28,864 nt of DNA from a virus: the IMG/VR virus record IMGVR_UViG_3300020428_000058, positions 1 to 28,864 of that record. One strand, given 5' to 3'. Positions within the stretch are counted from its first letter, which is position 1. Each line of letters begins with the position of its first letter. A program made the position numbers and the translations under genes. The notes beneath the pieces were generated by a model. The model had not been told where the DNA came from. It ran no database searches and saw nothing but the letters and a program-made list of their open reading frames with translations. Positions 1 to 8,007 of the stretch are shown one piece after another.

Positions 1-1
1 C

Positions 2-448
2 AACGTAGCCATTATCGAAGTGAATGACCAGCCGGTTAGGGATTGGTCAGCATTTCGATTGAGTAACGAGGTAGGCATCTCGTCTGCCCCACCAAGAGAA
101 AGTTTAGGTTCAAGGTTTCTTGAGACTATTCGTGACACATTTATCGAACAGTTCGACTTTGAACGAAACGCAGCGTTAGACCTCGAGGACGATGACTTAG
201 TCAACGACCTCTTGTTCGAGCACCAGCACGACATCATTCATAACGTTGTCGACGGCTGTGTGCCTATCTACACTCACCAGATCTGGGAGACCTTCACAGA
301 CCTCTGTGCATGGTCCGAGGATCTATCTGAGTTAGGTGGCCCGGAGACCGACATGAACAAGAACGCCATGACGGCGCTCTACATGATTGGTTGCAGGCTC
401 GGCGATGCTCTCTGGCGAAGTTATAAACGTGAGCTGATGACGTCATGA
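2..448 (+). CDS. Hypothetical phage protein, probably 5'-truncated by the window edge
   Basis: The frame is open from base 2 and ends at the TGA at 446-448. A GTG at position 20 would give 142 residues, but no Shine-Dalgarno sequence precedes it and the codons upstream still read as protein, so the true start probably lies left of the window. The protein is soluble and acidic, with an Asp/Glu-rich stretch (around residues 53-60 counted from the GTG) and several Trp residues; no signal peptide or membrane segment is visible. I do not recognise the family. Its stop overlaps the ATG of the next small gene by 4 nt (ATGA), which points to one co-translated early operon. Confidence 0.7.
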   Translation, partial: NVAIIEVNDQPVRDWSAFRLSNEVGISSAPPRESLGSRFLETIRDTFIEQFDFERNAALDLEDDDLVNDLLFEHQHDIIHNVVDGCVPIYTHQIWETFTDLCAWSEDLSELGGPETDMNKNAMTALYMIGCRLGDALWRSYKRELMTS

Positions 449-564
449 TTCAGCTCACCGAACGAGGGAAATTTAGTGCGTTCGTCACTTGTTTCTTGAT
501 CGCATATGTCTGGGTCTCAAACTCTGACATTCAATATTGCATCGAGACGGGCATCTGCCCATGA
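445..564 (+). CDS. 39-aa predicted single-pass membrane miniprotein
   Basis: A short ORF starts at the ATG that overlaps the previous stop (ATGA) and ends in a TGA that overlaps the next ATG at 561. Both junctions are 4-nt overlaps, which is strong context for a real, translationally coupled gene. After a short polar N-terminus (about 9 residues) it has a hydrophobic stretch at about residues 10-24 (AFVTCFLIAYVWV) and then a short tail with two Cys (32 and 38). One membrane helix is likely. Function is unknown; a role at the host membrane during early infection would be a guess. Confidence 0.55.
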   Translation: MIQLTERGKFSAFVTCFLIAYVWVSNSDIQYCIETGICP

Positions 565-740
565 CGACGACCGCTAACACTCACTCAGTTGAGCGGCGAA
601 CTGTGCCGCTCGGCATGGGACTGAACACCGTTGTGTTTCTTGTTAAAGACAACCTCGGGAGAACAGTCCGCTTCGCTACCAGTCAGCAAGAAGCTGACAT
701 GGTGGCTGAGTCCTTATCCGAACCACGACCAGACGAATAG
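561..740 (+). CDS. Small hypothetical protein (59 aa)
   Basis: I chose the ATG at 561 because it overlaps the stop of the 39-aa gene; an in-frame TTG at 537 is possible but would overlap that gene by 28 nt. The protein has a basic N-terminus, a central beta-like segment (GLNTVVFLVKDNLGRTVRF) and an acidic helical C-terminus. This resembles small phage proteins in which a beta-hairpin is followed by one helix, but I cannot name a family. It lies 14 nt upstream of the next gene in the same operon. Confidence 0.6.
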   Translation: MTTTANTHSVERRTVPLGMGLNTVVFLVKDNLGRTVRFATSQQEADMVAESLSEPRPDE

Positions 741-754
741 AGAGGAGGATCAAC

Positions 755-979
755 ATGTCTAGACAATCTCAAATTACTGAGGCGCTCACCAAGTTGCGTG
801 AAATGAAAGCCATTCAGGCATTTCATAAAGGCAACAATAAGGCCGAACCAAACAACCTTGAATGGTTCGTGCAGGTGAACGAACTGGAACTTCTCTATCT
901 AAACAGTCGGGAGGTCGAAAGTTTTATTAATGGCGCTAAAGCGGTGCTGGTGGTTGCGAGTCAACCTTCAGTTGCCTAG
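755..979 (+). CDS. Small hypothetical protein (74 aa)
   Basis: The ATG at 755 is preceded by a strong ribosome-binding site (GAGGAGG at about 741-748) with good spacing. The protein is mostly helical (ITEALTKLREMKAIQAF) with a second half that also looks helical; no cysteines, signal peptide or membrane segment are seen. It is the last gene before the terminator at about 1013-1060, so it closes the first early transcription unit. Function not recognised. Confidence 0.65.
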   Translation: MSRQSQITEALTKLREMKAIQAFHKGNNKAEPNNLEWFVQVNELELLYLNSREVESFINGAKAVLVVASQPSVA

Positions 980-1012
980 ACTGTAAACAATGTTGTTCCC
1001 CAACCGGATCTA

Positions 1013-1060
1013 CCGGCTGGCCTTTGGGTTCCTCCTCGGGTCAGCCGGTTTTTCTGTTTT
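1013..1060 (+). terminator. Rho-independent terminator with long C/U-rich loop
   Basis: A stem of CCGGCTG (1013-1019) pairs with CAGCCGG (1042-1048) and extends by about four more pairs, including wobbles (1020-1023 with 1038-1041). The remaining loop spans 1024-1037. A T-rich tract follows (TTTTTCTGTTTTT, about 1049-1061). It sits between the first early unit and the endolysin gene. The loop reads TTGGGTTCCTCCTC and is complementary to the ribosome-binding region of the minus-strand HTH gene starting at 2083 (see findings). A weaker competing hairpin, CCGG 1004-1007 with CCGG 1013-1016, shares the left arm. Confidence 0.75.
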
Positions 1061-1084
1061 TGGCGACAGTTTCCGGGTGGCTAA

Positions 1085-1825
1085 ATGATGCACTCAAGAT
1101 CTGTATGGAACGCAGCCCCTCCGAAGAAAACCCGTCCGTTTAAGAACGTCGACGGCATCGTTATTCATTTCGCTGGGTTCGCCATAGCTCCGAACCGTGA
1201 CACTCCCGGTCTGTTGAGGTCAATTCAGCAAGTCCATCAGGGCAAGCCTCGAAACTGGTGGGACATTGCCTACAACGTTCTCGTCGATCAGTCTGGAGAG
1301 GTCTGGTCTGGTCGAGGTCTCACCGTCACCTCTGGAGCTAACGGTGTGACCGCTAGCAACAAGAGTCATGTGGCGATCTGTGCGCTGATCGGTGCTGGAC
1401 CAATTCCTCCGGCAATGATTGACGGCATTAAGACTGCTGTCGATCTGATTCGGGACAGGTGGCCAGGTGCAATTGACATCATGCCGCACAGCCAGATCAA
1501 ACCAACTATTTGCCCCGGCGATCCTCTCCGCACCCTTATCGCTAACGGTGATCTGGACCCGGGCAACAACACACAGAAGGTGACGTTCGACTTCATCGAG
1601 CGAGGCTCTAAGGGCACTCGGGTGGCTCGACTGCAGACAGCTATCGGTGCGACACCTGATGGAGCTTTCGGTCCTCGGACGGAAAGCGCAGTTGAGGAAC
1701 TGACTCGTGCCATTTACCCTTTTGGTGGGATGGTCTCTGGGAGATGTGGGCCTGAGCTGTGGAACTACGTTCTTTGGACTGAAGGGTTAGAGCAGCGGCC
1801 CATACTTAGCTCGGTACTCACTTAG
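1085..1825 (+). CDS. Endolysin: N-acetylmuramoyl-L-alanine amidase with peptidoglycan-binding domain
   Basis: This 246-aa enzyme cleaves the amide bond between muramic acid and L-Ala in peptidoglycan. Residues about 20-150 form an Amidase_2/PGRP domain. Expected zinc ligands are H28 (IVIHFAG), H135 (MPHSQ) and C143 (CPGD); the conserved catalytic Tyr matches Y63 (DIAYNV). Where T7 lysozyme has Lys two residues before the Cys ligand, this protein has Thr (T141), as in many PGRP-type amidases. A linker at about 155-165 leads to a PG_binding_1-like domain (about 171-210, with LQTAIGATPDGAFGPRT). There is no signal peptide, so it needs a holin; the holin candidate is on the other strand at 12194-12397. 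The 3' end overlaps the convergent HTH gene by 39 nt. The ATG at 1085 is followed by a second in-frame ATG at 1088. Confidence 0.92.
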   Translation: MMHSRSVWNAAPPKKTRPFKNVDGIVIHFAGFAIAPNRDTPGLLRSIQQVHQGKPRNWWDIAYNVLVDQSGEVWSGRGLTVTSGANGVTASNKSHVAICALIGAGPIPPAMIDGIKTAVDLIRDRWPGAIDIMPHSQIKPTICPGDPLRTLIANGDLDPGNNTQKVTFDFIERGSKGTRVARLQTAIGATPDGAFGPRTESAVEELTRAIYPFGGMVSGRCGPELWNYVLWTEGLEQRPILSSVLT

Positions 1826-2083
1826 TTCTTCTTTCAGCTCGATAACTTGTTGGAGAGCTAGAACCAGTTGTTCTTGGACTGCGACCAGTCTGTCATTCTC
1901 GGCGCTCGGTCCTCGTTGCCCTGTCTTCAGAGGGACGTTGTGTTTGTTGAGAACTTGGTAGAGACGTTGCCGAGTGATCCCTAGGTCTTGCGCCACGTCG
2001 TCGGCTGACCTCTCATCTTCTGTTGGTTCCCAACCTTCGTAGTGGTCTATTACCTGCTGGTCACGTTTCGTCATTGACGGCAT
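1787..2083 (-). CDS. HTH DNA-binding protein with C-terminal coiled coil (candidate regulator)
   Basis: This 98-aa protein has a helix-turn-helix at about residues 24-50 (DDVAQDLGITRQRLYQVL) and a C-terminal coiled coil at about 66-92 with heptad-like leucines, which suggests a dimer. A good ribosome-binding site (GGGAGGA) lies seven bases before the first ATG; a second ATG is at codon 4. It is the only minus-strand gene in the early half of the window. It is divergent from the Cro/CI-like gene at 2245 and overlaps the endolysin 3' end tail to tail. The context suggests one partner of a lysogeny or early/late switch. Its ribosome-binding site is complementary to the terminator loop at 1023-1035. 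It is not a classical CI: no peptidase domain is present. Confidence 0.8.
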   Translation of the reverse strand: MPSMTKRDQQVIDHYEGWEPTEDERSADDVAQDLGITRQRLYQVLNKHNVPLKTGQRGPSAENDRLVAVQEQLVLALQQVIELKEELSEYRAKYGPLL

Positions 2084-2135
2084 TTGGGTTCCTCCCTTGC
2101 TAAGGCGAAAGGTTACCCGTTAACTAGACAGGTCA

Positions 2136-2164
2136 TTGACTTTATGAGAATACTTTTCTACTTT
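2136..2164 (+). promoter_or_regulatory. Candidate sigma70-type promoter for the XRE regulator operon
   Basis: A -35-like TTGACT at 2136-2141 is followed, after a 17-bp spacer, by a poor -10-like TACTTT at 2159-2164. This would start transcription near 2171, upstream of the gene at 2245, and place the two inverted repeats at 2174-2206 just downstream of the start. The -35 matches well; the -10 matches only half of the consensus, so the assignment is tentative. Confidence 0.4.
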
Positions 2165-2173
2165 AGTTTGTTA

Positions 2174-2206
2174 GTTGCGCAATTATTCAGCGGATAGTTG
2201 TGCAAC
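2174..2206. promoter_or_regulatory. Candidate operator pair in the divergent regulator region
   Basis: Two similar near-palindromes lie between the divergent HTH genes: GTTGCGCAAT (2174-2183, with an inner perfect TTGCGCAA) and GTTGTGCAAC (2197-2206). They share the pattern GTTGYGCAAY and their centres are 23 bp apart, about two helical turns. Paired dyads of this size between divergent phage regulators are typical repressor sites. Which of the two HTH proteins binds cannot be told from sequence. Confidence 0.45.
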
Positions 2207-2244
2207 GCACTAAGTTCAACGCAAACCCTACGAGGAGGACATAT

Positions 2245-2664
2245 ATGAAAGTTACGACCGCTCTGGCTTATCGAGTACAACAAGAGTTGTCTCGACATCC
2301 CAGAATCACAAACCGGAAGGAGCTGTCTCAGTACTTGCAAATATCTGAGTCAGCTTTAAGTCGATTGTTATCTAATCCGAATCGAAAGATGTCTCAGAAC
2401 ACATTCGACAAACTCGCTTCGTTTCTAGCAGTCCCGTTCGACAAACTCGAAGCTGTTCTTGCAGACGACGCAATGACTGACGATGAGCTGAGAGCTGAAC
2501 ATGCGGTGATGCAAGAGAGAGCTGCGGCGCAGACTCGGCAGATCCTTGACCTGTCCCGACGCCTCGAAGATCTCGAAGACATCTTTAACACAAGGATCGA
2601 GGGCAACAACGAAGGGAGGCAAGCAGATGGACCAAATGAAGGGACACTCAGCGGAACAAGCTGA
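2245..2664 (+). CDS. Cro/CI-like XRE-family HTH regulator with coiled coil
   Basis: This 139-aa protein has an XRE/lambda-repressor-type HTH at about residues 24-66 (KELSQYLQISESALSRLL, then a helix ending in AVPFDKLEA). A charged helical region at about 80-118 is likely a coiled coil for oligomerisation. The C-terminus is low-complexity and polar. I chose the ATG at 2245 because GAGGAGG at about 2232-2238 is ideally placed; an in-frame GTG at 2200 lies within a candidate operator. It has no LexA-type peptidase domain, so induction by RecA cleavage is not expected from this protein. Its 3' end overlaps the next gene by 38 nt. Probable role: early repressor or Cro-like switch component. Confidence 0.82.
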   Translation: MKVTTALAYRVQQELSRHPRITNRKELSQYLQISESALSRLLSNPNRKMSQNTFDKLASFLAVPFDKLEAVLADDAMTDDELRAEHAVMQERAAAQTRQILDLSRRLEDLEDIFNTRIEGNNEGRQADGPNEGTLSGTS

Positions 2665-3283
2665 AAGAAACCTCGATGAGTTACGACGTCAAGGTTGGTG
2701 GTCTGGGGCTGAATTTGCGTGGGAACCTTCCCGCACGGATCTCCTTCGCTGGAGGGCAATTGCTCGAGAGGCTGAGAGCAGAGCAGACGAGCACATCGTT
2801 CGTCTTGACGCCAAAACTGCACTCTTCCTTGAACGACTAGTTGGTGGTCAAACCCTCTACATCTATCGAAATGAGGACTACACCAACTTTGGTCTCAACG
2901 AACGAGAGTTTGTACCCTTTCCGAGCTGGCTTTGGTTGTGCAAACGGCAACGTCAGCCGGTTCTTCCATGGCAGTGGTCGAATTACACGTTGAAGGCCAA
3001 TTATTGGAAAAGCGCTTTTAACGTGCTTGGCAGATATGGAATTATGGCCGATTCTTCGATGGGCATAAACGAAATGAATGTGCTCTTACGAGTCTTTGTG
3101 AAGAGCGGCAAAAGGGTGCAGACCCATACGTTTGAAGTTGACCGTCGAAAGGCTACGGAGGTTGAGGCAAAGATTGCTATCTGGCAACAAACGAAGGAAC
3201 CGAACTTAGACCCGAATGACTCAATCATGATGGATCTGATCGATTCTGACGAATACCTAGGAGGTGTTCTCGACTTCAGTTAA
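2627..3283 (+). CDS. Hypothetical protein (218 aa)
   Basis: The ATG at 2627 is preceded by GGGAGG (2614-2619), so I prefer it to the upstream in-frame ATG at 2546, which lies deep inside the regulator gene. The protein is Trp- and Arg-rich in its first half (LRRQGWWSGAEFAWEP; PSWLWLCKRQRQPVLPW), has a beta-rich middle (about 150-175) and an acidic C-terminus. No membrane segment or catalytic motif is visible and the family is not recognised. It is co-transcribed with the XRE regulator and followed by the inverted-orientation terminator-like hairpin at 3332-3368. Confidence 0.7.
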   Translation: MDQMKGHSAEQAERNLDELRRQGWWSGAEFAWEPSRTDLLRWRAIAREAESRADEHIVRLDAKTALFLERLVGGQTLYIYRNEDYTNFGLNEREFVPFPSWLWLCKRQRQPVLPWQWSNYTLKANYWKSAFNVLGRYGIMADSSMGINEMNVLLRVFVKSGKRVQTHTFEVDRRKATEVEAKIAIWQQTKEPNLDPNDSIMMDLIDSDEYLGGVLDFS

Positions 3284-3331
3284 CTGTCTCACCCTAAAAG
3301 TAATGTCTTTTAACTTTCCCGGAACGGGGCG

Positions 3332-3368
3332 AAAAAAGAGTGAAGGGCCGTTGGACCGGCCCTCACTC
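3332..3368 (-). terminator. Hairpin with its U-tract on the minus strand
   Basis: GAGTGAAGGGCCG (3338-3350) pairs with CGGCCCTCACTC (3357-3368), twelve pairs with one bulged A and a 6-nt loop. On the plus strand no T-run follows it. On the minus strand the stem is followed by six Ts (complement of A3332-3337). It is therefore oriented to stop leftward transcription, although no minus-strand gene is visible to its right until 11279. The 3284-3406 interval otherwise contains nothing convincing as a gene. Confidence 0.6.
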
Positions 3369-3406
3369 CTAGCCCCCGAAGGGACTCCCACGAGAAGGAC
3401 AAATGC

Positions 3407-3943
3407 ATGCCCAACTCAGGCACCACCATACCGTCGACCAACACTGGTTGGCGGGATCAAATAACAGAAGCAGTATGTAACAACGGTGAAGCGTCACCTG
3501 AAGCAGTGAAAGAGCTGCTTAAAAGGCACGTTTCGCTGGACGACCTAACGAGAGGACCCGTCTATGAACGGGTCATTATTCTCAGCCATTTAGGCTTCAC
3601 TCCGAGCCAGATCTCTGAAGCTCTTATCCAAGCAGAAGAGCGGGTCAACTACCTGCTGCGTTCAGCTCGGTCAGACACTTGGAGAATTATCGAGGAACAC
3701 CTAAACGGTTACACAGCTCAAGAAATTTCGGAGCTAACCGAATTCTCTAAGGCGTACATCTATCGGATACTGAAGAAATACAACTTTCGTCCACACGTTC
3801 ATAACGCACCCGGGCTGACCTCTCGTCAAGAGGAGGAAGTTCTTCGCAGATACCGGGAGGGCGAAGCTCAGAAGACTATCTCTCGGATGACTGGGGCAAC
3901 TGTCGCTCAAGTCAAATACCTGTTGAAACGCAGGACCCGATGA
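3407..3943 (+). CDS. Protein with three tandem helix-turn-helix units
   Basis: The 178-aa product shows three HTH-like segments: about residues 55-85 (HLGFTPSQISEAL), 92-124 (HLNGYTAQEISELTEFSKAY) and 140-174 (YREGEAQKTISRMTGATVAQ). The second and third resemble the HTH of resolvases and phage regulators. A basic tail (LLKRRTR) ends the protein. AGAAGGA upstream gives the ribosome-binding site; a nearby ATG at 3403 is in another frame. Its stop overlaps the next ATG by 4 nt, so it is translationally coupled to the nuclease. It could be a transcription factor or a DNA-binding partner in replication or recombination. Confidence 0.72.
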   Translation: MPNSGTTIPSTNTGWRDQITEAVCNNGEASPEAVKELLKRHVSLDDLTRGPVYERVIILSHLGFTPSQISEALIQAEERVNYLLRSARSDTWRIIEEHLNGYTAQEISELTEFSKAYIYRILKKYNFRPHVHNAPGLTSRQEEEVLRRYREGEAQKTISRMTGATVAQVKYLLKRRTR

Positions 3944-4791
3944 AGAAGATGCGTCAAAGCACGATCGGTACAGCACAAACATGTGCTCACCGGTTGACGT
4001 ATGACCTTGACCCTCGCATCCCGTATTCCTCAGGTGTGGTTCGAGCCATAGGTACAGCAATTCATGCTGGTCACGAGGCTTACTATTTGAACCGCCAAGA
4101 GACCGGTGTTTGTACGGGAAACATCAGGCCGTGGATCGAGCGAGCGTTAGATGTATTTCAAGCCGAGATTGATCGAGCTGACGAACGCTTCTCATGGCAG
4201 TACCAACCTAAGAAGGCTCGCTCTGACGAGATCATTCTGAACTTCGAAGAAGCAGCAATGAAGATCGGTACAGCGATCTCCTTCTACCATCAGAACGAAC
4301 ACTATTGGGACTCAAGCTACGAGGTTCTTGGTGTCGAGGAATCATTCGACCTTCCATGGGAAGGACATGATGACTGGGTACGTCATGGCACTATCGACCT
4401 AGTTCTCCGGGAAACAAAAACTGGGGACGTGATCCTGTGTGATCACAAGAATTCGTTAGCTAAACCTAGAGCTGACAAGTACCGTGCCCATAAGACACCT
4501 CAAGCTGCCTACTACCTCGGGGTATTCCCTGAACTTGGGGTAGCTGAGTCTGACGCCAAACTGCGATTCGTCTATGACGTAATCGCTTTAGATGGTCCCA
4601 CATTCCATCGCATCGAGGAACCTCGGACCGAAGCTCAGGTAGAGGCAACAAAACTGAGAGCTGAAATGCTCGCTGACCTCATCGATGCCGATGGGCCCTA
4701 CCTGCCTAACACTGAATCATTTCTCTGCTCGAAAGCGTATTGCGACTACTGGGACATGTGCCCGTTCGGCGCATCGTTTCGAGCTTCTTAG
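3940..4791 (+). CDS. RecB/Cas4-like PD-(D/E)XK exonuclease with four-cysteine iron-sulfur motif
   Basis: This 283-aa nuclease has the RecB-nuclease core: H42 and H45 in AIHAGHEAYY, E133, D153 (GTIDLV), and D168-x-K170 (CDHKNS), followed by a QAAYY motif (QxxxY). One N-terminal Cys (C15) and three C-terminal Cys (C263, C268, C274) fit the AddB/Cas4 arrangement that holds a 4Fe-4S cluster. Known relatives are phage and Cas4 exonucleases that process DNA ends during recombination or replication. No cas1, cas2 or CRISPR array is present, so a CRISPR role is not supported. It is coupled to the triple-HTH gene upstream and is followed 22 nt later by an unknown 192-aa gene. Confidence 0.87.
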   Translation: MKKMRQSTIGTAQTCAHRLTYDLDPRIPYSSGVVRAIGTAIHAGHEAYYLNRQETGVCTGNIRPWIERALDVFQAEIDRADERFSWQYQPKKARSDEIILNFEEAAMKIGTAISFYHQNEHYWDSSYEVLGVEESFDLPWEGHDDWVRHGTIDLVLRETKTGDVILCDHKNSLAKPRADKYRAHKTPQAAYYLGVFPELGVAESDAKLRFVYDVIALDGPTFHRIEEPRTEAQVEATKLRAEMLADLIDADGPYLPNTESFLCSKAYCDYWDMCPFGASFRAS

Positions 4792-4813
4792 ATCCCACGA
4801 AAAGGAAACACCA

Positions 4814-5392
4814 ATGAATAAAGATATGTCCATAGTCAGCCAAACGGCTGGCAAATTAACAGCTCAGGTAGTGCAGAGCGATACAGCTATAGCCGCAGTA
4901 CGAAACGGAGTGTTTGCCGAGATCCATGAAACGATTCTTTGCACACTGATCGACGCAGCTACTGAGACAGCTCCTGCTGCCCCCGTAGTGCAACTAGCTC
5001 CAGAAGCTCAACAACACGAACAGGCTGTAGCGAACGTGCTCAACACTTTCGATGGAGCGACTGTCACGACCGATGTTGGGACGACCGACTATCGGCCCGG
5101 TCCCCCGGTCCAGATCACTGACAAGTCTTCAACCATTGAAATGCTTGAGGACGCTTTGTTCCACAACCCTGACCACTGGAAAGTATGGGACACGCCGAAA
5201 GCGTCAATGAACGGTGGCAACTCACCTGACATCACGCACGAGACTTTGAAGCAGGCCGGTGGAAACTACAAGGTCAGCGTTTTCATGGTCTCTAAATACG
5301 CTGGGCAGTCCGCTCCTGAGTGGGCATGGACGAAGCTCGGCAAGCAACCTCAATACGCTGCCTTGTTGGCAGACGGGAAAATTACTGCCTGA
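4814..5392 (+). CDS. Hypothetical protein in the replication cluster (192 aa)
   Basis: The ATG at 4814 follows AAAGGAAA; longer in-frame starts lie inside the nuclease gene. The N-terminal half (about 1-55) is helical, then comes an Ala/Pro/Val/Gln-rich linker (about 50-72), and the C-terminal half (about 110-192) is a Trp-rich compact domain (DHWKVWDTP; APEWAWTKLG). There are no catalytic motifs. Position between an exonuclease and a helicase would suit a single-strand-binding or recombination partner, but I cannot show an OB fold. Its TGA overlaps the helicase ATG by 1 nt. Confidence 0.68.
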   Translation: MNKDMSIVSQTAGKLTAQVVQSDTAIAAVRNGVFAEIHETILCTLIDAATETAPAAPVVQLAPEAQQHEQAVANVLNTFDGATVTTDVGTTDYRPGPPVQITDKSSTIEMLEDALFHNPDHWKVWDTPKASMNGGNSPDITHETLKQAGGNYKVSVFMVSKYAGQSAPEWAWTKLGKQPQYAALLADGKITA

Positions 5393-6258
5393 TGTCATTG
5401 CGAGTCCTTCCAGAAGTGAAGGACGAGCTGTACCAGTGGGCAACGTCGGACATAGTTCGAGTACCTATTGGTTACTCGTTCTTTGATGACCGTACTCATG
5501 GCGGCATGGCACCTGGCCAAGTGATGATCATGCTTGCCCGAACAGGTGTTGGTAAGACGTGGTTCTTAACTAACGTCGCCGTCAATAACCCGAGTGTTCC
5601 GACCGTTCTCTTCTCACTGGAGATGGATGGCCGGTACATCTTGGAACGCTTAGCCAGCAATTTTACTGGCACGTCGACCACGACTATCGAGTCGACAATG
5701 CGAGAGCACGGCAAATGTTCAGCAATCGAGATGACCAGTTCTTCCCTCCCTCTGCTGGTTATCGATGATGAGCCCGACCTCGGACTCGGTGATATGAGCG
5801 AAACGCTAGATCAATATGCGTCTCGTCTCGGATCCCGACCGAGGTTGGTCCTCATCGACTACCTCGAACTGGTACGAACTTGGGGAGATAACCAGATGGA
5901 CTCTGTGCAAAGCATGGCTAGGTCACTCAAGGTCTTTGCCCGTGAAAATGATGTGGCCTGCATAGTGCTCCATCAGGTGAAGCGAGGTGACGCTAACGCT
6001 GGTCACCGACCGCTCGACTTGACTGACGGAAAGTTCGGCGGCGAAGAATCCGCTGACTACGTCTTGGGGATGTACAAGCCATCTCTCGATCCGAACATTT
6101 CTCAAAAGATGCGTGAGTACATGGAGAACGACATCAGGTTGCAGTTTCTAAAAACGAGAACAGGTGGGGGTATTCATCCAGATGGTGTTCAGCATCATTG
6201 GAACCCAGCAACCGGGAAGATCACCAGACCACTCGTTCAAGACCAGCTCAATATATGA
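5392..6258 (+). CDS. DnaB-type replicative helicase, single RecA-like domain
   Basis: This 288-aa protein matches the C-terminal ATPase domain of DnaB. It has a Walker A at residues 49-56 (ARTGVGKT), the DnaB motif FSLEMD (74-79), a Walker B ending in D156 (LVLIDYLEL), the sensor H194-Q195 (VLHQVKRG), and a basic KTRTGG motif (254-259) typical of DnaB motif H4. The N-terminal primase-interacting domain of cellular DnaB is absent, so this is a minimal phage helicase. The ATG at 5392 overlaps the previous stop (TGATG). It should unwind DNA at the fork with the primase encoded at 6702. Confidence 0.9.
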   Translation: MSLRVLPEVKDELYQWATSDIVRVPIGYSFFDDRTHGGMAPGQVMIMLARTGVGKTWFLTNVAVNNPSVPTVLFSLEMDGRYILERLASNFTGTSTTTIESTMREHGKCSAIEMTSSSLPLLVIDDEPDLGLGDMSETLDQYASRLGSRPRLVLIDYLELVRTWGDNQMDSVQSMARSLKVFARENDVACIVLHQVKRGDANAGHRPLDLTDGKFGGEESADYVLGMYKPSLDPNISQKMREYMENDIRLQFLKTRTGGGIHPDGVQHHWNPATGKITRPLVQDQLNI

Positions 6259-6340
6259 CGAAATATCAAGGTCCTAGGGGTAGGCGGCGATGCTGCAAAG
6301 CCCTTAGGCGGCTTCCTGTGCGGAGCAAAAAGGGGAAATC

Positions 6341-6547
6341 ATGAACAAACCTAACTCTGTGAGCCATGTCGGCGATGACATCCACCTGTGGCTGGAAATA
6401 GGACAACAGTCCGGGTGGTGCGGCCAAGTGACCTGCGGCACACACGACGGACCTGAGATGACTGAATCCGAGTACGACTCGATGGACGAATACGACGACC
6501 CGTGTCTTCCGATCGTCCGTATCTGGATACCGGAGGACATGAAATGA
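6341..6547 (+). CDS. Small Cys-containing protein, actinophage-type (68 aa)
   Basis: The ATG at 6341 follows AAAAAGGGG. The protein contains GWCGQVTCGTHDG (C27, C32, H35) and a later DDPC (C55), a spacing consistent with a small metal-binding fold. The combination of CxTHDG followed by an acidic stretch, DPC and a beta strand (IVRIWIP) is one I associate with small proteins of actinobacteriophages; this is from memory, not a search. It lies after an 82-nt gap from the helicase and its stop overlaps the next start by 4 nt. Confidence 0.72.
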   Translation: MNKPNSVSHVGDDIHLWLEIGQQSGWCGQVTCGTHDGPEMTESEYDSMDEYDDPCLPIVRIWIPEDMK

Positions 6548-6705
6548 AACTGACCTGCTGCGCCGGGAACCTTTCACTACGACCGATCATGCGTAACTAC
6601 CGACAGATCGACAACGTCAGAGTAGGCATATCGATCTTCAAATATCCCGAGCTACTGAAACTAGAGACCTACGTTCCCGAAAGAGACCTGGGAGGCGAAG
6701 GGTGA
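6544..6705 (+). CDS. Small hypothetical protein (53 aa)
   Basis: The ATG at 6544 overlaps the preceding TGA (ATGA), and the TGA at 6703-6705 overlaps the GTG of the primase gene, so the gene is coupled on both sides. A longer in-frame version from 6502 would need 46 nt of overlap. The product begins MKLTCC and is otherwise basic and beta-like, with no recognised motif. It may be a small accessory protein of the replication genes, but that rests only on position. Confidence 0.6.
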   Translation: MKLTCCAGNLSLRPIMRNYRQIDNVRVGISIFKYPELLKLETYVPERDLGGEG

Positions 6706-7628
6706 AACGCAACCAGATGCATGACCTGCGAGATCAGGTCAAGAGCACCGTCACCATGACCGAAGCCCTCGACATCTTAGGTTTCGAACCACCTAACAGA
6801 AGCGGCAAAATCAGGTCACTGCAGAACCCCTCAGAACGCACACCTTCACTGCATGTTTATGACCGTGACTGGTACGACTACTCCACCGGGGAAGGTGGCG
6901 ACGTTATCGACTTCGCCATGAAAGCTCGAGGACTGAGTTACCACGATGCATTGGAGCGTTTAAGCGGTCGACGGTTAGATCCGCTGAAAATAAAGAAGGT
7001 CCGCAAATATGAACGGCAACTCGAGAACCTCAACGACACTTTCGTTGGACAACCACAAGCATCACCGGCCGGATATCGAAGAGCTGAAGAGTTTGTGGCA
7101 AAGAAATGGCCCTACCTGCAACTTGACGATCTCTTGGGTTTCGATGTCAGGGTCACCGAAACAGAACTATGGACACCACATAAAGATGCTTCAGGCATCG
7201 TCCGAGGAATAAAGAGAAGGTCCACCGAGACAGGAGCGAAGTATTCGATTGCCGGGTCGACCTTTACTTGTGAGCCATACCGGGTTCGACATTTAGTTGC
7301 CACTCCTCTAGCTGTGCTGGTCGAAGGCGAGTCCGACTTGTGGTGCATGGAAATGTGGCTACGAAAGAACGGATGGCAATACAAGGCGTTCGCATATGCC
7401 CTTCCCTCTGGAGCTGCGACGTGGCGAAATGAATGGAAAGAACTATTCAGGAAACATCAACACACAATCATTTGTCTCGATGATGACGACGCCGGTCGAA
7501 CAGCAACAAAGAAGATTGCATACGAGCTGCAGGACACAACATCAGTCTGTCCTCCCGGAGGTCGAGTGGCAGAAGCCATAGAAACCGCTGACCAATGGTT
7601 GGCACCAGTGATGGAGCTGGCACTCTGA
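6702..7628 (+). CDS. DnaG-type primase with degenerate zinc domain and Toprim domain
   Basis: This 308-aa primase-like protein makes the RNA primers for phage replication. Residues about 16-90 align with the CHC2 zinc domain (NPSERTPSLHVY; then YDYSTGEGGDVIDFAM), but all Cys/His zinc ligands of that domain are missing. The Toprim domain begins near residue 200, with the acidic E208-G-E210 (VLVEGESD) and D260-D263 (ICLDDDDAGR) expected to bind magnesium. It starts with GTG at 6702, preceded by GGGAGG. It is shorter than cellular DnaG and has no separate helicase-binding domain. It pairs functionally with the helicase at 5392. Confidence 0.87.
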   Translation: MKRNQMHDLRDQVKSTVTMTEALDILGFEPPNRSGKIRSLQNPSERTPSLHVYDRDWYDYSTGEGGDVIDFAMKARGLSYHDALERLSGRRLDPLKIKKVRKYERQLENLNDTFVGQPQASPAGYRRAEEFVAKKWPYLQLDDLLGFDVRVTETELWTPHKDASGIVRGIKRRSTETGAKYSIAGSTFTCEPYRVRHLVATPLAVLVEGESDLWCMEMWLRKNGWQYKAFAYALPSGAATWRNEWKELFRKHQHTIICLDDDDAGRTATKKIAYELQDTTSVCPPGGRVAEAIETADQWLAPVMELAL

Positions 7629-7978
7629 TGTGGGTTTATCTTTGGCTACTACTTGACTGGACTGGGTTCCATGCAGAGCCCCCACATAGCGAGATTCCCG
7701 CTGTCGTCGAGGAGTACTTCGGAGCTGAGGAGGCATCCACAGCTCTCGGTGTCTTCTGGTGTGAGAGCTTGCATCGACCTACCGCTGTGTCCCATACCGA
7801 TGACCACGGGGTTGCTCAGCTCTCCCATTGGTACTGGGGAGAGGAAGCTTTTGGCGAGCGATGGAACCATGTTTATGAGATTCGACCCAATATTGCTATG
7901 GCTTTCGAGATCTGGAAATGGGGCGAAAAACGCTTTTCAGATGGATGGGTCCTTTGGGCCTGTGGACGTAATATCTGA
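7628..7978 (+). CDS. Lysozyme/lytic-transglycosylase-like protein
   Basis: This 116-aa protein resembles the small actinobacterial and phage transglycosylase/lysozyme fold. Helix EASTALGVFWCES carries the likely catalytic Glu (E46, after C45), followed by the family-like run AVSHTDDHGVAQLSHWYW, a helical NIAMAFEIWKWGE and a final WVLWACG. The pattern is ...CESxxxPxAV...GxxQ...A...SGWxxWxCG, as in resuscitation-promoting-factor-like and SLT enzymes. The N-terminus (MWVYLWLLLDW) is hydrophobic and could act as a signal or anchor. The ATG at 7628 overlaps the primase stop (TGATG). A cell-wall enzyme here, inside replication genes and far from holin and endolysin, is unusual. Confidence 0.7.
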   Translation: MWVYLWLLLDWTGFHAEPPHSEIPAVVEEYFGAEEASTALGVFWCESLHRPTAVSHTDDHGVAQLSHWYWGEEAFGERWNHVYEIRPNIAMAFEIWKWGEKRFSDGWVLWACGRNI

Positions 7979-8007
7979 ATTCCACCCCTTGGCTAAACGT
8001 CACCAAT

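Follow-up and report, generated by a model that had tools for sequence, protein, structure and literature searches.

A predicted terminator loop complementary to the shared Shine–Dalgarno sequence of the upstream operon in a family of uncultured phages

Small RNAs of Alphaproteobacteria with CCUCCUCCC motifs reportedly carry in their loops an anti-Shine–Dalgarno (anti-SD) motif of the same type as the phage loop described here; these RNAs are bacterial and from other phyla, and we know of no tie between them and an operon with a matching extended Shine–Dalgarno sequence (SD). Mycobacterial B11 represses mRNAs through C-rich hairpin loops that pair with their ribosome-binding sites (PMC10470900), and in S. 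aureus initiation on the icaR mRNA is prevented when its 3'-UTR pairs with its SD (PMC3868564). Among phages, the T4 nuclease RegB shuts off early genes at their SDs (GGAG) (PMC3014915). Cluster K mycobacteriophages have 11–19 copies of the Start-Associated Sequence (SAS), an extended SD, at the starts of non-structural genes, and a single reverse copy without a gene has been noted in four of them (PMC3203893).

We analyzed an entire IMG/VR virus record (28,864 bases; the window), the start of which falls within an operon that ends in a predicted terminator hairpin (Table 1). As in B11/6C, a C-rich hairpin loop is set against the ribosome-binding sites of many mRNAs in an actinobacterial setting (PMC10470900), but B11 is an independent sRNA of the host that has two C-tract loops and acts on scattered targets, whereas the phage element is one loop, part of a predicted terminator, and is matched to the extended SD of the operon that it would terminate. 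Rfam gave no match in the window at gathering and none in 900–2300 at E up to 10, and descent from B11/6C is not supported. It would share with icaR a 3'-UTR motif directed at the SD of its own mRNA (PMC3868564); icaR, however, is one gene with a long 3'-UTR, whereas here the terminator loop itself faces the SDs of a whole operon. RegB likewise achieves early-gene shut-off at SD sequences (PMC3014915), but is a protein endoribonuclease, whereas the agent proposed here is RNA pairing. While anti-SD loop regulators are already known, the phage terminator-loop form with an operon-wide SD appears to be new: no phage element of this kind was described in the literature searched, which took in few subscription journals.

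Table 1. Features around the predicted terminator hairpin of the window
Feature	Position	Strand	Remarks
SD GAGGAGGA of gene 755–979	742–749	+	8 nt complementary to loop
Last gene of upstream operon, 74 aa, no assigned function	755–979	+	Homologue precedes hairpin in seven phages aligned
Predicted terminator hairpin	1012–1049	+	Stem ACCGGCTGGCCT (1012–1023)/GGGTCAGCCGGT (1038–1049), 12 bp; stem varies among relatives, pairing kept
Apical loop TTGGGTTCCTCCTC	1024–1037	+	Its GTTCCTCCTC (1028–1037) is the putative anti-SD; invariant among eight aligned hairpins of this loop type
U-rich tail TTTTCTGTTTTT of predicted terminator	1050–1061	+	From sequence
Endolysin (amidase), first gene past terminator	1085–1825	+	Homologue at same place in all lineages
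HTH gene, 98 aa	1787–2083	-	Missing in several relatives that retain hairpin
SD and first start-codon base of HTH gene	2083–2095	-	13 nt complementary to loop; possible extra target in this lineage
SD CGAGGAGGA of XRE gene	2231–2239	+	9 nt complementary to loop; possible extra target
XRE-type HTH gene, 139 aa	2245–2664	+	

The window hairpin has a predicted folding energy of -31.2 kcal/mol (z -5.4), and no shuffled sequence folded equally well. With its GC-rich stem-loop followed by a U tract, 1012–1061 has the makeup of an intrinsic (Rho-independent) terminator, as do the corresponding sequences of relatives. A preliminary description of this DNA had come upon the loop as one half of a near repeat, and its coordinates hold: 1019–1035 (GGCCTTTGGGTTCCTCC) and 2079–2095 (GGCATTTGGGTTCCTCC) are identical in 16 of 17 positions, and an exact 13-nt run (1023–1035 and 2083–2095) fills the terminator loop. 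Its caution that a 13-nt match can occur by chance is also well placed. The bare repeat says little, because the window contains 14 direct repeats (maximal, exact, 13 nt or longer), against 6.3 in shuffles (range 2–11). The GGAGG core of any SD pairs with CCUCC, so the match between loop and SD is partly given, and we agree with the same description that the CCTCC part is expected against a strong ribosome-binding site. It is in the conservation of the loop, and in its agreement across lineages with the SDs of the upstream genes, that these sequences depart from chance. The preliminary description could not include this upstream partner, since the record starts partway through the operon. Other terminators of the same genomes (window 11566, L004 8369, L006 10699; L numbers denote loci) have no such loop, and no minus-strand gene using the loop's complement as SD was seen. 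A separate block, GTTTTTGGCGACA (window 1055–1068), lies between the terminator and the endolysin start and is conserved in relatives.

Relatives were opened in IMG/VR with the endolysin and a DnaB-type helicase as queries; blastn of window 1–8000 against phage records gave no relatives, and helicase searches of those records gave distant ones only. One contig, L041, was found in an Acidimicrobiaceae MAG, which suggests actinobacterial hosts, and this family of uncultured viruses is probably actinobacterial. In the lineages having the hairpin its position is constant, directly 5' of the endolysin homologue. The stems differ greatly among relatives yet remain fully paired (ACCGGCTGGCCT/GGGTCAGCCGGT; GACCCCGGTCGATGA/TCATCGGCCGGGGTT; GAGCCCTTCCGTTAC/GTAGCGGAAGGGTTC), and GTTCCTCCTC is unchanged above them in all eight aligned sequences. 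Ten folded hairpins have z values of -4.1 to -8.6. Matches to GTTCCTCCTC in L013–L015 and L023 and at window 27252 lie outside such hairpins and were discarded as chance.

An IMG/VR scan for the hairpin alone, with no gene used, returned L109; 12 of the 14 new matches were not such hairpins, and the SDs occurred in none of those 12. In an unrelated phage (L106, reverse strand, 1857–1895) a terminator-like hairpin has the loop GTTCCTCCTCCTTA, with no matching SDs within its 6.8 kb. At the same junction before the endolysin, four phages have a different structured element with GAGGTTGTCCTCCTCCC (L027 7425–7500, L030 6150–6230, L033 7395–7495, L034 1680–1755). Its outer stem varies with pairing kept, and the early SDs of these phages are GAGGAGGA; this element was rejected as a terminator of the same kind. 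Both cases weigh against the riboregulator reading given below.

The genes upstream of the hairpin share an extended SD, which differs from lineage to lineage. Over ten loci, the SD motif proper to the lineage was counted at 63 upstream and 2 downstream starts relative to the hairpin (a count in which 3 sites figure twice). By motif, the counts are 37 upstream and 2 downstream for GAGGAGGA in seven loci with loop UCCUCCUC (the 37 include the 3 sites counted twice), 21 and 0 for GAGGAGAG in two loci with loop CUCUCCUC, and 5 and 0 for AAGGAGGA in a single locus with loop UCCUCCUU; each of these motifs is nearly missing from the other lineages. L019 and L021, for example, have GAGGAGGA at nine and seven genes upstream, and at one and none downstream; L002 has CGAGGAGGAACA at three upstream genes. 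In L109, the last 5.3 kb before the hairpin contain twelve SDs of the GAGGAGGAA type, and the 6.5 kb preceding that stretch contain none. L109 extends the L009 lineage and adds no new one, because the two hairpins are nearly identical and its last three SD sites are those of L009.

Counted over starts, which were called crudely, complementarity of at least 8 nt to the locus's own loop occurs at 41 of 90 upstream but 2 of 152 downstream (Fisher p 8.5e-19, an overstatement because loci within one lineage are not independent; exchange of loops between lineages is the fair test). The element thus presents a predicted unpaired loop complementary to the ribosome-binding sites of several genes, as in an anti-SD loop riboregulator, and is located at what would be the end of the operon whose SDs it matches.

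Between lineages, loop and SD change together in sequence, the pairs being GAGGAGGA(A) with UUCCUCCUC, GAGGAGAG with CUCUCCUC, and AAGGAGGA with UCCUCCUU. L013, L014, L016, and L017 have the loop UUACUCUCCUCU, and GAGGAGAG serves as the early SD in L013 and L016 (9 and 12 upstream, 0 downstream). L035, with the loop UUCCUCCUU and AAGGAGGA as SD (5 upstream, 0 downstream), differs from GAGGAGGA by one compensated change. In L041 (loop CAACCUCCUCGUG), four of the five called upstream starts have a 9–10 nt complement through ACGAGGAGG, and no downstream start exceeds 7 nt. In L012, the SDs GAGGAGAC and GAGGAGAG are complementary to the loop UUAGUUCUCCUC over 7 nt only, which counts against the model. 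When loops were exchanged among six lineages, a small number of independent ones, the true assignment fell within the top 2 of 720.

Two rival explanations are set here against these data. Strong SDs are frequent in early genes, and an inherited, functionless C-rich terminator loop could resemble their complement by coincidence. The ordinary nature of the 13-nt repeat and the expected pairing of CCUCC with GGAGG are compatible with this, but a loop that stays invariant above rebuilt stems, and shifts in step with lineage changes in the SD, makes coincidence improbable. Alternatively, the loop might be kept for another partner, either a protein that binds RNA or a role, at the level of DNA, for short homology between SDs and terminator at gene boundaries. 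Repeats linked to SDs in cluster K have been suggested as sites for some RNA or protein (PMC3203893). Such a partner would not account for a loop that is complementary to the SD, tracks changes in the SD, and occupies the apical position, and we consider it very doubtful.

The preliminary description had proposed that an RNA with this loop could silence one or both of the regulators encoded downstream, HTH and XRE. Both matches on which it relied, the 13-nt run over the HTH start and the nine-base pairing with the XRE SD, were confirmed (Table 1), and pairing of an anti-SD loop with mRNA starts is, from the sequences, very probable; HTH is nevertheless not the main target. HTH homologues occur in the window, L007, L002, L012, L035, and L041, and in none of the other loci searched. 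Their starts are complementary to the loop over 13 nt in the window, 12 in L007, and 10 in L002, but over only 5–7 nt in L012, L035, and L041. The corresponding lengths for XRE are 9, 5, and 9 nt in the window, L007, and L002. The TTTGG by which the run is extended in the window is conserved in neither L007 nor L002. Searches for protein relatives of HTH and XRE in IMG/VR, and of HTH also in phage records, found nothing.

That the loop is a specific silencer of HTH (and XRE), and thereby of a lysis–lysogeny-like switch, is accordingly hard to believe. The RNA–RNA interaction prediction that had been suggested gives a strong loop–HTH duplex of -25.8 kcal/mol, and the complement is long in the window, L007, and L002. 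On the other side, L006, L009, L013, L016, L019, and L021 keep the loop with no HTH homologue found there, and in L012, L035, and L041 the HTH start fails to match the loop of the same locus. HTH and XRE cannot explain the conservation of the loop, because it is kept without HTH and the complement elsewhere is weak; they may be further targets in the window's own lineage. The original finding is real and larger than first noted, and its main target is the upstream operon.

We judge it rather probable that the hairpin at the 3' end of the early transcript acts as an anti-SD riboregulator on the leftmost operon, presumably an early one, and shuts off early translation. The co-variation of loop and SD lends indirect support to repression through direct pairing. 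We call the operon early because it has many small genes of no assigned function and because the protein of gene 20–448, which matches phrog_4239, also has a weak match to Ocr-like anti-restriction proteins. The hairpin would serve as the intrinsic terminator of this operon. As full-length transcripts, or a 3'-end fragment, build up, the loop would pair over ~8–11 nt with SDs of the early genes, either in trans or on the message that carries it. Paired SDs would keep 30S subunits off, by analogy with B11/6C or the icaR 3'-UTR, and early translation would cease. Genes past the terminator would be spared, since their SDs do not match the loop; HTH and XRE, which also have the motif in the lineage of the window, may come under the same control. 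Predicted duplexes between the loop and the early SDs tested range from -16 to -23 kcal/mol (-13 to -14 in L012) and are stronger than those between SD and 16S tail; only at window gene 755 are the two about equal. In the window, however, duplex energy does not discriminate, because imperfect duplexes at non-target starts reach -16.3 kcal/mol.

The pairing might instead be confined to one message, the 3' end folding onto its own SDs mainly for mRNA stability or to form an RNase III site, and not be diffusible. Loop and SDs do lie on the same operon, and the icaR 3'-UTR of S. aureus, in pairing with its own SD, both prevents initiation and creates a substrate for RNase III (PMC3868564). Nonetheless, a single loop faces 7–12 SDs per message, and hammerhead ribozymes between genes in L012, L013, L016, and L041 should cut the message apart; action in trans is therefore favored in those loci, and we regard confinement to one message as unlikely.

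A parallel in cluster K is possible, but the evidence for it is mixed, and we take it as a lead rather than support for an anti-SD riboregulator. In Adephagia (JF704105.1, about 58659–58714; L042 28660–28715), a strong hairpin, GCGCGG-CCTCCTATCC-CCGCGC, has the reverse SAS in its loop, and this loop is retained in six K1 phages (Adephagia, Anaya, Curiosium, Validus, SgtBeansprout, and Niklas). Both systems thus have an extended SD motif repeated at many starts, with one reverse copy in a hairpin loop in the K1 phages. Sequence and phages are different, however, and the loop is lost or altered in further SAS-bearing cluster K phages. As a second case of loop–SD co-variation cluster K failed, in that SAS is unchanged but the loop altered in Ekdilam, Shandong1, and Unicorn, and Yuna and Marshawn keep SAS without the loop. 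Nor do the phages studied here repeat GGGATAGGAGCCC, the SAS motif, at gene starts; their shared SDs are GAGGAGGA, GAGGAGAG, or AAGGAGGA, and only the layout is alike.

We put forward tentatively a broader possibility, namely a phage RNA circuit in which the terminator loop of an early operon is the anti-SD to an operon-specific extended SD, the operon limits its own translation, lineage-specific pairs co-evolve, and the SAS of cluster K could be the target half. If true, this would be an early shut-off switch made of RNA alone, in which the 3' end of an operon signals against all of its own starts, and base-pairing would control a whole operon through a shared extended SD, leaving co-variation as its trace. 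It also offers a direct test of the SAS repeats, unexplained since 2011, because K1 phages have their reverse copy in the loop of a hairpin.

The early operons contain other RNA elements as well. Type II hammerheads (RF02276) form arrays in early-operon spacers (L012 517–2359, L013 1951–3403, L016 474–3420, L041 662–2145), each a short distance 5' of a shared SD; hammerhead ribozymes are known to flank prophage genes (PMC3088659). The early-operon leader (L013 1620–1690; also L012 110–180 and L041 20–90) is hammerhead-like, with a stem III in which CTCCTCGT would pair with the first SD, ACGAGGAG; the Rfam match of the L013 leader is below threshold (22.1 bits against 48.5). The tRNA-like part only of tmRNA (RF00023) is matched in the early operons of L016 (4979–5060, 58 bits) and L012 (1828–1919, 50.7 bits), the remainder being replaced by 13 and 31 nt, respectively. 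In the window, a non-coding block with the hairpin GGGCCGTTGGACCGGCCC lies at 3290–3400, between genes 2627–3283 and 3407–3943, and a similar block occurs in L007 and L002.
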